Source: Peribacillus frigoritolerans (GTDB taxonomy: Bacteria > Bacillota > Bacilli > Bacillales > DSM-1321). Taken from it: DNA of 64,000 nucleotides. Within the stretch, counting starts at the first letter, position 1, and each line of letters starts with the position of its first letter. Under the pieces are notes generated by a model. That model saw only the letters and a list, made by a program, of their open reading frames with translations, was not told the origin of the DNA and did no database searches. Where the stretch lies: positions 3,194,001 to 3,258,000 of the forward strand of contig NZ_CP158190.1 in assembly GCF_040250305.1 (NCBI RefSeq). The letters run 5' to 3'. Positions 11,882 to 30,725 of the stretch are shown piece after piece. The translations under genes and the position numbers were made by a program.

Positions 11882-12074
11882 ATCCCGCTCTGCTCCTCAC
11901 TCCTTACAAGAAAGATTACCGCCTTAAGGGCGGCCATTGATTAGCAGTACCACAATCCGCCCGGCATCCGCTTCCTAAAAGTGCATGGAAGTAGTTATCA
12001 TAATACTTTATTCGCTTTAATGTGATCTATTCCCTTTTTAATGAAAGGCAATTCCCAACACGGTCCAAATAAAA

Positions 12075-12099
12075 AAGGACTCCGAATTGAACGGAATCT
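12075..12099. repeat. Left copy of duplicated terminator hairpin
   Basis: AAGGACTCCG, 7-nt loop, CGGAATCTT. The same hairpin recurs on the far side of the element at 12356-12384, so it looks like a 24-25 bp target duplication. Confidence 0.75.
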
Positions 12100-12355
12100 T
12101 ATTGTAGACAAAATGGGTTCCTACCCAATTTTAGAACAAGACTAGATTATTCTTAATGTTTTTCACTGTATTCCTTATTGGATTGAAGAAATTTGCGACA
12201 CTCCTGCCGAATTACTGGCTAGCCGAGACACCGCAGCCGCAAGGCGAGGAGGCTTGGCAGGCAGTCGGTGGAAAGGGAGCGGATTTCTAAAATACGTTTT
12301 CTAAATAAAAAAACTGCAGTCAAACTCGCTTTTCTTCGAGTTTGTCTACAGTCTC
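12100..12355 (-). mobile_element. Non-autonomous IS1182-related element (MITE-like)
   Basis: About 255 bp, no gene. The ends are inverted repeats: ATTGTAGACAAAA on the left, and TTTGTCTACAGT on the right (reverse complement ACTGTAGACAAA). Inside are the family core (TTGAAGAAATTTGCGACACT, CTGGCTAGCCGAGACAC, GGCAGTCGGTGGAAAGGGAG) and a terminal stem-loop (AAACTCGC..GCGAGTTT type, near 12320-12345). It is in the opposite orientation to the three copies at 29.2-30.1 kb. The flanking 24-25 bp terminator hairpin is duplicated. Confidence 0.75.
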
Positions 12356-12384
12356 AAAGGACTCCGAATTGAACGGAATCCTTT
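12356..12384 (-). terminator. Terminator after the DUF4870 gene (right copy of duplicated hairpin)
   Basis: Minus strand AAAGGATTCCG, loop, CGGAGTCCTTT. It lies just after the stop at 12394 and is the second copy of the hairpin at 12075-12099. Confidence 0.75.
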
Positions 12385-12393
12385 TACATCATT

Positions 12394-12714
12394 CTATAAT
12401 ATCCTGAAGATCAACGGGAACCTGTAATCCGTTCCTTCATAAGCCCTAACAGCAGCAATGATGGTGAATACGACTAAAGCTATCCCGATAACCGGCAATA
12501 GCAAGAATCCAACCAATACTATAGTGAGTATCCCTGCGACTATTGAATATACGGTGTAGGAAATGAAAAAATTCAAGTATTCCCTTCCGTGATAATCCAC
12601 AAATTGTGACGAGTCCTTCTTCAATAACCAAATCACCAAAGGACCGATAAATGCTGTAAAAAAGCTGATCACATAAATAAGGGCAGCAAACACTCTTTCA
12701 TCTTTAGTAGGCAT
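12394..12714 (-). CDS. DUF4870 small membrane protein
   Basis: 106 aa with three predicted membrane segments (FAALIYVISFFTAFIGPLVI; FISYTVYSIVAGILTIVLVG; LLPVIGIALVVFTIIAA). WLLKKDSSQFVDYHGREYLNF between the first two is the DUF4870 signature, and AYEGTDYRFPLIFRIL is the usual end. Start ATG 12714 lies 9 nt after GGAGGAG. Function is unknown for the family. It is transcribed toward the inserted repeat element, whose target hairpin is probably its terminator. Confidence 0.85.
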   Translation of the reverse strand: MPTKDERVFAALIYVISFFTAFIGPLVIWLLKKDSSQFVDYHGREYLNFFISYTVYSIVAGILTIVLVGFLLLPVIGIALVVFTIIAAVRAYEGTDYRFPLIFRIL

Positions 12715-12919
12715 AGTGTCTTCTCCTCCTTTCTCATATGAATAATTACGAATCAAATGAAAAATAGTTTCATTTTTCCTTTCATTTTATTCGAAACCAG
12801 GTAAAATTGGACTGCTTTTTCTTGATAAAGACAATAAAATCCGGACATGTTCATCCGTCTTGTGCATACAGTTTAAAAAATGGATTGTCCTATACCTTCT
12901 AGAATGGAGTGATGTTTTT

Positions 12920-18481: not shown

Positions 18482-18488
18482 CAAAAGG

Positions 18489-18510
18489 ACTTGCCCAAAA
18501 CGGCAAGTCT
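18489..18510 (+). repeat. Left copy of the mscS terminator hairpin
   Basis: ACTTGCCC-AAAA-CGGCAAGTCT, an imperfect hairpin 7 bp after the mscS stop, now without a T-run. The same hairpin with T-run is found at 19321-19350, across the IS remnant: a 22-24 bp duplication. Confidence 0.8.
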
Positions 18511-19320
18511 CAGACTGTAGACAACTTCGATGAAAATCGAGGTTGTCTATTTTTATGGCTTGTACAATTTGGACGTTGATTTCCACTTCAGGCACTCGCT
18601 TTCCGCGGGCGGTCGGGGAGCCTCCTCGGCTTTCGCCTGCGGGGTCTCCCCTAGACGCGCTTTTCCCGCAGGAGTCTCGTACCTTCCGTTCCAATCAACT
18701 TTGTCTTACCTTTTAGATCGAACACTTTTGCCTAGAGTCATTTTTGTTTTAAAATAGAAGTATTAAAACTTGAGGTGATGAGGATGCTTTCTAAACATGA
18801 TTCTATTCAGCGAGATCAACTTGAAATGATTACTTTAGATCAACTGGTGCCAGCAAACCATTTGGTTCGTAAAATGGAAGCTGCCATTGACTTCTCTTTC
18901 ATTAAGATTTGGTGAAAGATAGTATTCAGAGGTAGGACGCCCAAGTATTGATCCAGCTAAATAAGTTAAACTGACCTTCATTCAATATACCTTCAGTATT
19001 CGTTCAAGCGTAAAACAATTGAATTGAAAGAAGGTTGAAACAAATACGGCTTACAGTTAGTTCTTTGGCAAAGCAGCTGTCATTAAGATAGATAGAAATC
19101 TGTTCAAACAAGTCTGTATCTTTAAAGCGTCGTTTAATTTTCCCCGAACATTGAGATATGAGGCACTTTATCATGGAAACCATATCGCACTGACTTTCAC
19201 ATGTGTGGAATCCACGTATACTTGCTCTGCACTTATTAACTTAAATAAGCGAAAATTCAAAGGGAATTTCAAAAGGGGTTCGAGATTTTTTAATTCCGTA
19301 CCCCTTTTGTCTACAAACTG
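18511..19320 (+). mobile_element. Degenerate IS1182-family insertion sequence
   Basis: 810 bp bounded by inverted repeats CAGACTGTAGACAA (left) and the complement of CAGTTTGTAGACAA (right), and by a duplicated terminator hairpin. After the left end come a stem-loop (GACAACTTCGATG..ATCGAGGTTGTC) and a GC-rich leader (18590-18700: GGCACTCGCTTTCCGCGGGC .. CGCAGGAGTCTCG), then the remains of the transposase. A full element should be roughly twice this size, so more than half has been lost. Confidence 0.85.
18784..19260 (+). pseudogene. IS1182-family transposase remnant, rearranged
   Basis: The plus strand from ATG 18784 (ribosome site GAGGTGATGAGG) reads MLSKHDSIQRDQLEMI, LDQLVPANHLVRKMEAAIDF, a stop, then in another frame VGRPSIDPAK-stop-VKLTFIQYTFSIRS. 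These are the start of IS1182-type DDE transposases. From about 19085 to 19198 the match switches to the minus strand (YGFHDKVPHISMFGEN, RRFKDTDLFEQI). A second minus-strand piece at 19188-19235 reads SAEQVYVDSTHVKVSA, and at about 19244 the plus strand resumes with NKRKFK. The four pieces lie in normal protein order, but the middle two are inverted in place. Confidence 0.85.
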
Positions 19321-19350
19321 AGACTTGCCCTAAACGGCAAGTCTTTTTTA
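19321..19350 (+). terminator. Right copy of the mscS terminator, with T-run
   Basis: GACTTGCC, loop CTAAAC, GGCAAGTC followed by six T. It is the second copy of the hairpin at 18489-18510, and is now upstream of the MATE gene. Confidence 0.82.
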
Positions 19351-29109: not shown

Positions 29110-29199
29110 TCTTATCTGCTCCTATGATCCGGTTAAATTCGATTCGGTTAAATTTTATCATACTTATCTTACTAAAGCACTTGCCGGATTCACAAAAAA

Positions 29200-29219
29200 A
29201 ACAGCCCGTAAGCTGGTTT
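29200..29219. repeat. Hairpin flank 1 of the triple insertion
   Basis: AACAGCCCGTAAGCTGGTTT, an imperfect hairpin related to those at 29826-29847 and 30134-30155. Confidence 0.7.
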
Positions 29220-29517
29220 CAGACATAGACAAAGTCGAAGAAAAGCGAGTTCGACTGAGGTTTTTTATTTAAAAACGTCCAGTCGATTTCAGAAATCCGC
29301 TCCCTTTCCGCCGACTGTCTGCCGAGCCTCCTCGACGAAAGCGTCTGTGGGGTCTCGGCTAGCCAGTTATTCGGCAGGAGTGTCGCAAATTTCTTCAATC
29401 CAATGAGGATTAGAGTATAAAACTATTAAGACCGGAGTACTATATTCGAGCGTTCGCGAGATTTTTTGACCTTCATCTCACTATTCGGACTCCGAACACC
29501 ATTTTGTTGCCAAACTG
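29220..29517 (+). mobile_element. Non-autonomous IS1182-related element, copy A
   Basis: 298 bp, no gene. Left end CAGACATAGACAAAG with a stem-loop (GTCGAAGAAAAGCGAGTTCGAC); core GATTTCAGAAATCCGCTCCC, TCTCGGCTAGCCAGTTATTC, GGCAGGAGTGTCGCAAATTT; right end GTTGCCAAACTG. The ends match the IS1182 remnant at 18.5 kb, but the transposase is replaced by about 100 bp. It abuts copies B and C in the same orientation. Confidence 0.8.
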
Positions 29518-29544
29518 AAATCACGGAGTCCATCTTCGTGGTTA
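29518..29544. repeat. Hairpin flank 2 (between copies A and B)
   Basis: AATCACG and CGTGGTT form the ends of a 27-bp hairpin-like spacer; it has diverged from the other three flanks. Confidence 0.6.
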
Positions 29545-29825
29545 CAGACTGTAGGCAAACTCTATGAAAACTCAGTTTGCCTACAGTGTTTTATTTAAAA
29601 AGTTCAGTTGATTTCAGAAATCTGCTCTCTTTCCGCCGACTGTCTGACACGCCTCATCGGCGCAAGCTCCTATGGTGTCTCGGCTAGCCAGTTATTCGGC
29701 AGGAGTGTCGCAAATTTCTTCAATCCAATGAAGATTAGAGGAAAAAACCATTAAGGATAATCTGGTCTTGTTTTAAAATCATGGTTCGAGATGAGACCAT
29801 TCCGAACGCTTTTGACTGCAAAATG
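29545..29825 (+). mobile_element. Non-autonomous IS1182-related element, copy B
   Basis: 281 bp. Left end CAGACTGTAGGCAAAC with a long stem-loop to GTTTGCCTACAGTG; the core is as in copy A with point changes (TCTGCTCTCTTTCCGCCGAC, CTCGGCTAGCCAGTTATTC); right end GACTGCAAAATG. The segment GGATAATCTGGTCTTGTTTT is shared with copy C. Confidence 0.8.
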
Positions 29826-29847
29826 AAACAAGCCGGATGGCTTGTTT
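29826..29847. repeat. Hairpin flank 3 (between copies B and C)
   Basis: AAACAAGCC-GGATGG-CTTGTTT, a near-perfect 22-bp hairpin related to flanks 1 and 4. Confidence 0.75.
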
Positions 29848-30133
29848 CAGAATGAAGATAAACTCGAAGAAAAGCGAGTTCGACTGCAGTTTTTTATTTA
29901 ATAATGTCCAGTCGATTTCAGAAATCCGCTCCCTTTCCGCCGACTGTCTGCCAAGCCTCTTCGGCGCAAGCGCCTGTGGTGTCTCGGCTAGCCAGTTATT
30001 CGGCAGGAGTGTCGCAAATTTCTTCAATCCAATAAGGATTACAGGAAAAAACCATTAAGGATAATCTGGTCTTGTTTTTTAAAATCCTGGTTAGGGATGA
30101 GACCATTCCGACTTCCCTTTTGTCGACAAATTG
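29848..30133 (+). mobile_element. Non-autonomous IS1182-related element, copy C
   Basis: 286 bp. Left end CAGAATGAAGATAAACTCG with stem-loop GAAGAAAAGCGAGTTCGACTG; core as in A and B (GCAAGCGCCTGTGGTGTCTC, GCTAGCCAGTTATTCGGC); right end TTTTGTCGACAAATTG, very close to the right end of the 18.5-kb IS (TTTTGTCTACAAACTG). Confidence 0.8.
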
Positions 30134-30155
30134 AACCAAGCCCGTAAACTGGTTT
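30134..30155 (-). terminator. mtnD terminator, hairpin flank 4
   Basis: Minus strand AAACCAGTTTACGGGCTTGGTT lies 12 bp past the mtnD stop. It is the likely original terminator into which the three elements were inserted. Confidence 0.65.
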
Positions 30156-30167
30156 TTCAACACTGAT

Positions 30168-30701
30168 TCATGCTTGAACTTCGTCTTTTTCGTAAATCGG
30201 CACCCATCCTGCCGCTGTAACGAAAATGCGGACAGCAACAGTTTTCCTATCTTCTGCAAGCGTAAAATAATGTCTTGTTGATTCTGGTACACTAATAAGA
30301 TCACCTGGATTAAGGCGCACATCAAACCACTGTTTATCCTTGCCTTCGATGGCAAAGATACTCGTTCCGCCTGCTATGAAACGCACTTCATCATCTTCAT
30401 GGTGATGTTCCTGCTTAAAGTTTTCAAGCATTTGATCCAAGTTCGGATTCGCATCGGATAATGTGATGATATCATGCGCTTTATAGCCTCTTCTTTCGGA
30501 GATTTCCGCTATCTCTGATTGGAATGCTACTAGGATTTCCTCCTTGTCAGCATCTGTTAGATCGTATTTTTCCACGAGATGGGCCGGTAATTTAGAAATG
30601 TCCCACTGCTCATAAATAACCCCTTGTGTTTCTAAAAATCCTTTTACCTGTTCACCGTTTTCAATAACCTCGTTTGTTTCATGGAATCTGATCGTCGCCA
30701 T
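30168..30701 (-). CDS. mtnD: Acireductone dioxygenase
   Basis: Oxidises acireductone to 4-methylthio-2-oxobutanoate and formate (iron form), the last ring step of methionine salvage. 177 aa cupin. Metal ligands are visible in EHHHEDDEVRF (three histidine/glutamate positions) and the distal histidine in PESTRHYFTL. The N-terminus ATIRFHETNEVIENGEQV and VIYEQWDI match MtnD. Start ATG 30701 (or the ATG just before it, 30704) after AGGAGG. It is the last gene of mtnW-X-B-D, 21 bp after mtnB. Confidence 0.95.
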   Translation of the reverse strand: MATIRFHETNEVIENGEQVKGFLETQGVIYEQWDISKLPAHLVEKYDLTDADKEEILVAFQSEIAEISERRGYKAHDIITLSDANPNLDQMLENFKQEHHHEDDEVRFIAGGTSIFAIEGKDKQWFDVRLNPGDLISVPESTRHYFTLAEDRKTVAVRIFVTAAGWVPIYEKDEVQA

Positions 30702-30725
30702 CATTCATTCCTCCTCTATGAGTGT

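Follow-up and report, generated by a model that had tools for sequence, protein, structure and literature searches.

Introduction

Siguier is said to have stated in 2015 that some members of the IS1182 family of insertion sequences (IS) target palindromes. DDE transposases normally produce target site duplications (TSDs) of fixed length; in the usual view such an enzyme cuts the two strands of its target at a constant spacing, and this spacing sets how long the duplication is. Outside the family, group IIC introns insert at terminators; these introns and the IS found in REP palindromes use other enzymes, with a conserved target sequence or one-sided insertion. For IS in REP palindromes, the accessible text of one study describes palindrome targeting (PMC1525189). 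Within the IS1182 family, the accessible parts of two papers report that IS1272 inserts at inverted repeats whose sequences are unrelated, RNA-seq having confirmed several as terminators (PMC4923244, PMC5678879), and the earlier of the two, Furi 2016, that TnSha1 and IS1272 target hairpins and terminators with partial deletion (PMC4923244). The later one, Wan 2017, draws three pathways in its accessible text: pathway a, in which the arm is lost and which is offered for IS1272; pathway b, in which the whole stem-loop is duplicated; and pathway c, in which the loop is duplicated. It also describes the 2015 statement on palindromes as made without detailed data (PMC5678879).

As far as the accessible parts of these sources go, then, hairpin targeting by the IS1182 family is already known, and whole-hairpin duplication has previously been drawn as a possibility. 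What we report as new, although curators of IS databases may know it, is whole-hairpin duplication as the general rule of one clade, with a TSD length that follows the target. We have found no description of whole-hairpin duplication as observed here in the literature covered; ISfinder, TnPedia and subscription papers lay outside this scope, and prior notice there is possible. The analysis started from a stretch of 64,000 nucleotides of Peribacillus frigoritolerans (NZ_CP158190.1, positions 3,194,001 to 3,258,000; hereafter the window), three sites of which are occupied by elements with the ends of the clade that we call group 1. Group 1 and the pair IS1272/TnSha1 belong to the same IS1182 family and have inverted repeats and terminators as targets in common. 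However, insertion of IS1272, in the accessible descriptions, deletes the hairpin wholly or in part without leaving a TSD, whereas group 1 keeps the hairpin twice (TSD in 105/115 copies).

Occupied terminators in the window

The coordinates of the three sites are given in Table 1. At 12.1 kb, the initial annotation had described a 255-bp element bracketed by two copies of a terminator hairpin, and at 18.5 kb an IS1182 remnant between two copies of the mscS terminator; both arrangements are seen directly in the sequence, and relatives with an empty site hold a single hairpin at either place. Comparison of 21 genomes at the 12.1-kb terminator gave one hairpin and no element in 17, the element being present in the genome of the window, G024, G008 and G006. 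Among the 21 genomes listed for the mscS terminator, eight lack the element and show a single hairpin with a T-run behind it, five are occupied (the genome of the window, G024, G007, G001 and G028) and in the remaining eight the region is diverged or rearranged. The copy in G001 is intact, and the loop of its duplicated hairpin differs from that in the genome of the window, where the remnant retains two NF033551 matches (window 18805-18906 and 18917-19069), both under the family cut-off.

Table 1. Features at the three occupied terminators of the window
Feature	Position	Strand	Basis or remark
Left target-hairpin copy	12074..12100	.	terminator of minus-strand gene 12394-12756; single hairpin there in relatives
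255-bp non-autonomous element (MITE), group-1 IS1182 ends	12101..12355	-	sequence
Right target-hairpin copy	12356..12384	.	sequence
Left mscS terminator-hairpin copy, 22 bp	18488..18509	.	GACTTGCCC(A/T)AAACGGCAAGTC
Decayed IS1182 (group 1), 812 bp, ends TCAGACTGTAGACAA...TTGTCTACAAACTGA	18510..19321	+	sequence, ends, profile
Right mscS terminator-hairpin copy, 22 bp	19322..19343	.	GACTTGCCC(A/T)AAACGGCAAGTC
Outer hairpin of array	29199..29219	.	copy of terminator of minus-strand gene 30168-30704
MITE A	29220..29518	+	sequence
Inner hairpin, foreign	29519..29543	.	matches native terminator of another locus in the genus
MITE B	29544..29826	+	sequence
Inner hairpin AACAAGCCGGATGGCTTGTT	29827..29846	.	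unlike local target
MITE C	29847..30134	+	sequence
Other outer hairpin of array	30135..30155	.	mutated copy of local terminator

The third site is an array (29220-30134) in which three related elements, each 283-299 bp long, are separated and flanked by hairpins. Across 21 genomes, the element is absent in 14, where one AACCAGCTTACGGGCTGGTT-type hairpin stands before a T-run; the locus L398 also has one hairpin of this type, with a 46-base weak element match farther off. One element is present in G024 and G001, two in G006, and three in the genome of the window, G020 and G021. The initial annotation had allowed that empty sites in relatives might already contain two hairpins; at all three window sites they hold one. 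Folded as DNA, the three window target hairpins gave z values of -3.5 to -6.1, and the hairpin duplications of the window exceed chance.

The same annotation had taken the hairpins of the array as target duplications. This is correct for the two outer ones, which are copies of the local target, and not for the two inner ones. Since both of these are unlike the local target, and one is the terminator of another locus, not all the hairpins there are TSDs. The source of the latter, CCACGAAGATGGACTCCGTGA, was identified among 15 loci looked at as the terminator of another conserved locus, which is unoccupied in L408, L409, L411, L413, L414, L417 and L420 and has an adjoining element in L412, L418 and L419. 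It seems that a MITE picked up the terminator at one locus and that the MITE-hairpin pair is now at another, either by composite transposition or by recombination between MITEs. In G020 and G021 the unit of MITE plus CCACGAAGATGGACTCCGTGA hairpin is repeated. As neither inner hairpin resembles the local target, we abandoned the view that the array arose solely by repeated insertion into a duplicated hairpin.

Two observations on arrays may be added. At window 29519-29543 and in L408-L428, MITE arrays appear to carry terminators to new loci. The genome of the window (G000) has head-to-tail MITE arrays near 953.2, 2137.5 and 4184.5 kb (L061, L062 and L063), whose inner units, without outer ends and very alike, resemble tandem amplification and not insertion.

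One clade of elements with shared ends

On sequence grounds, these elements can be assigned to one IS1182-family clade, group 1, plus MITEs with the same ends. The group-1 terminal inverted repeats (TCAGACTGTAGACAAA / TTTGTCTACAAACTGA) are present at both ends, and are also found on the window remnant; remnant, MITEs and intact IS have their ends in common, and the MITEs and IS share their target mode as well. We infer that the MITEs would have been moved by the group-1 transposase. PF13751, PF05598 and PF01609 were present in all six transposases of set A1, and among its plasmid-borne relatives those from Peribacillus stand closest to the transposase. The ends of the intact elements form T-tailed hairpins of their own, so that read-through would probably be limited, both into the transposase and outwards from the element. 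A variant of the MITE, seen in L028, L048, L049, L055 and L060, has an internal minisatellite-like stretch of CACTTTATTCGACCGTTCACGCA-kind repeats.

The genome of the window contains at least 58 matches to the MITE (scoring covered 40 of the 122 first-look candidates). It also has 14 IS1182 matches, all of them below the NF033551 family cut-off. These copies are fossils, and fresh copies were therefore sought in relatives. When the old copies were checked for hairpins, as the initial annotation had proposed, a hairpin score of at least 14 was still reached at only 20/55 pattern-matched ends, a set that includes some inner sites which are not true ends, as against 1.6 percent of random positions, while the other ends scored below 14. 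Among the matches listed, all 36 genomes of the genus have an IS1182 match, 18 of them over the NF033551 cut-off, and an order-wide search gave matches, again among those listed, in 163/249 genomes.

Group-1 copies in related genomes

Our first set comprised 100 IS1182 copies from genomes of the genus, 81 of which have ends like TCAGACTGTAGACAAACTCG...CCTTTTGTCTACAAACTGA, as does the window remnant. A TSD of 14-33 bp was present in 75 of the 81, and its centre lies exactly on the axis of a hairpin in 74 of these 75; in L114 it is 2 nt off the axis. The target hairpins, among them AGCATTCTATATTGAATGCT, ATCCCCCTATATAGGGGGAT and AAGAAGTTCACTGTCGTGAACTTCTT, each preceded by an A-run and followed by a T-run, are unrelated in sequence, and structure is what they have in common.

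We then have 115 distinct group-1 copies, made up of the genus copies, further copies, the best order-wide loci and named plasmid copies (before scoring, 9 loci were unclassified and 18 were without both ends; 18 duplicates and one copy with a short flank were then dropped). A TSD of 14-40 bp was scored in 105 of them. In 103/105 its centre is at most 0.5 nt away from the hairpin axis (101 exactly on it), compared with 22/229 random positions within 1 nt, and self-complementarity of at least 0.7 was found in 100/105 TSDs and in only 15/2,100 random flank segments. A length that varies while the TSD stays centred on the hairpin axis indicates that the length of the duplication follows the structure of its target. 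The correlation between TSD length and fitted hairpin length is moderate (r 0.55), in our reading owing to the hairpin fit running on into the A/T tracts.

In the pair L111 and L156, one conserved terminator has been used in G016 (TSD of 21 bp) and in G017 (17 bp), by what we take to be independent insertions. Both TSDs are symmetric about the same axis, and their boundaries differ by two A:T pairs, on the left and the right alike; branch migration of a cruciform would give this, two unlinked cuts would not. With the unrelated hairpins and the axis-centred TSDs, this pair gives strong support to the suggestion of the initial annotation that targets are chosen by secondary structure. Its further suggestion, that the terminator is spared, is only partly right: the left hairpin copy retains the A-tract and the right one the T-tract, and the intact element brings T-tailed hairpins of its own at its ends.

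A set from named genomes (the best 80 loci, with 12 duplicates, 9 copies without ends and 2 cut copies left out) is partly independent of the earlier one, as some species overlap and exact repeats were removed. It provided 57 assessable new copies: 46 with a hairpin TSD, 4 with another TSD and 7 with none. The 46 include copies from Cytobacillus, Neobacillus, Lysinibacillus, Sporosarcina, Ureibacillus, Fictibacillus, Domibacillus, Metabacillus and Priestia. Three of the four other TSDs are hairpins with a shifted boundary or mismatches, and the fourth is an N run. Among the seven copies of this set in which we found no TSD, L475 and L501 are cut by masked N and two are from Thermoanaerobacter; these two assessable Thermoanaerobacter copies lack a TSD, yet have a hairpin after the right end.

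No TSD was scored in 10 of the 115 copies of the larger set. In L068 a nearly identical hairpin is present on both sides, and in L309 the script had misplaced the left end and the hairpin is in fact duplicated. The left and right hairpins differ in L098, L121, L255, L258 and L279, which we read from their sequences as probable products of recombination between copies; such mixed copies possibly mark past genome rearrangements. In L129, L135 and L159 one side is without a matching hairpin, and on that side L135 adjoins a group-3 element.

Sister clades

Two further groups, 2 and 3, have transposases with 23-25 percent identity to that of group 1. When 165 proteins were dereplicated to 43 and placed in a tree, each group came out as one clade with support of 99-100. 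Group 2 has a TSD of 8-9 bp in 21/22 copies. In 14/22 the TSD is centred no more than 0.5 nt from the best hairpin axis (random positions within 1 nt, 3/58), and the duplications of this group lie mostly within the hairpin loop. The clade is represented by L165-L169 and L310-L329, from G017, G263, G213, G102 and others; some of its targets are repeated palindromes and not terminators, those of G263 looking like copies of one with a loop of the GGGACGGWTC type.

Group 3 (L150-L153, L170-L173 and L330-L349), whose relatives include elements annotated ISSau3 and ISSep1, had no TSD in 29/31 copies, and complementarity between its flanks was no higher than the null (4.14 vs 4.13). At one site, L153, inspection by eye places a terminator hairpin behind the gene in 19/24 diverged relatives and the IS there in G032. 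A search for empty group-3 sites with concatenated flanks returned no close empty site for L152. Replacement of the hairpin by group 3 was not upheld beyond the one suggestive site, L153. Three group-3 copies, L151, L170 and L171, lie directly beside a group-1 element, where the target hairpin would be expected.

How the hairpin may be duplicated

We propose, with a probability of roughly 0.7, that the group-1 transposase targets an inverted repeat able to form a hairpin, and that the arm of the extruded cruciform is duplicated by strand transfer at its 5' feet. From the duplication, its symmetry and variable length, the terminator-like context and the single-hairpin empty sites, all of them observed, we infer the cruciform and the points of strand transfer. 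The target would nearly always be an intrinsic terminator at the 3' end of a gene, and would most likely be extruded as a cruciform with the help of its AT-rich flanks. Each of the element's two 3' ends would attack one strand at the 5' foot of the arm, the two feet lying side by side at the four-way junction. Gap repair would then copy the whole arm, giving the order A-tract - hairpin - element - hairpin - T-tract, and the length of the duplication would be that of the extruded arm. Attack at the loop would instead duplicate the loop, and attack at the 3' feet would lose the arm. We found no solved structure related by sequence to the transposase.

The initial annotation had left room for most copies lying outside terminators; what we see is that group-1 copies lie at terminator-like hairpins near gene 3' ends. 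Of the 78 group-1 sites with enough flank, 68 have the 3' end of an ORF no farther than 150 bp away, compared with 242/790 positions drawn at random from these flanks. Thirteen are inside an ORF of at least 80 aa, compared with 525/790 of the random positions. Survival of harmless insertions could account for part of this bias. It is possible, if rather unlikely, that it accounts for the whole of it, any palindrome being a target, which would be compatible with the cruciform. Strong inverted repeats are often terminator-like anyway, an A- or T-run standing beside 16 of the 26 in the window and both runs beside 5; but in comparison with these, a small control, one run stands beside 102/105 used hairpins and both runs beside 73/105.

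We think it improbable that the hairpin is recognised as single-stranded DNA, on the lagging-strand template, or in connection with transcription, through an R-loop or a paused polymerase, instead of as a duplex cruciform. The target hairpins fold readily as single strands, and they are terminator-like and placed at gene 3' ends, where transcription pauses. Against this, a symmetric duplication would require both strands to be attacked at mirror positions, which a four-way junction would offer and a single strand would not, and ORF 3' ends are found on either side of the element (left only at 28 of the 78 sites, right only at 20, both at 20), which gives no clear link to one direction of transcription. 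We think it more likely that the structure read is DNA rather than RNA.

On another reading, transposition is conventional: the enzyme prefers certain sequences near terminators, its staggered cut has a fixed length, and the hairpin is duplicated as a by-product. This reading has a parallel in the fixed TSD of 8-9 bp of group 2, but was rejected as very improbable for group 1, since the TSDs of this one clade range over 14-40 bp, are centred on the axis throughout and fall in targets without evident shared sequence. Equally improbable is the idea that two hairpins pre-existed at the sites or that the element carries them: the foreign hairpin between the array copies does indicate that hairpins can travel, but empty sites have one hairpin at all three window loci (which speaks against the idea for the outer hairpins), each insertion has its own flanking hairpin, differing from site to site, and on these two grounds both versions were rejected.

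Relation to known systems and implications

Set against the pathways drawn in the accessible text of Wan 2017, group 1 supplies pathway b at scale, and group 2 something close to pathway c; its 8-9 bp duplicated mostly in the loop contrast with the loss of the hairpin without TSD described in the accessible sources for IS1272. Among named members of the family, ISEfa7, known from plasmid annotation, is a relative of group 1 (~55 percent identity), and in L259 it stands between two copies of a terminator-like hairpin, with a TSD of 21 bp. For ISPse1, a Paracoccus member, a table in the accessible part of the source gives a duplication of 4 (PMC3281130), and long hairpin duplication is therefore not a trait of the whole IS1182 family, as far as this entry shows.

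The length of the group-1 TSD varies nearly threefold (14-40 bp) with its symmetry kept. Since it follows the target in this way, the genomic copies would record DNA hairpins as they were at the time of insertion. If our reading is true: (i) these copies would testify to the extrusion of cruciforms at terminators in vivo; (ii) they would show how an element can multiply at gene ends with little harm; and (iii) the choice of attack point by the transposases of the three clades can be compared in a directly testable manner. A wider proposal, to which we would give even odds, is that the group-1 transposase is a junction-directed DDE integrase acting at the branch point of the cruciform, with target structure setting the length of the TSD; that its sister clades use other points (the loop, and perhaps the 3' feet, with deletion), so that the three drawn outcomes would occur within one family; and that MITEs copy terminators to new loci.

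As a minor observation, the leader of intact group-1 copies (L094, for example) contains a GC-rich palindromic stretch, GCTTTCCGCGGGCGG...GCCTCCTCGGC, which resembles the repeats that harbour the group-2 elements of G213 (targets L315-L319).
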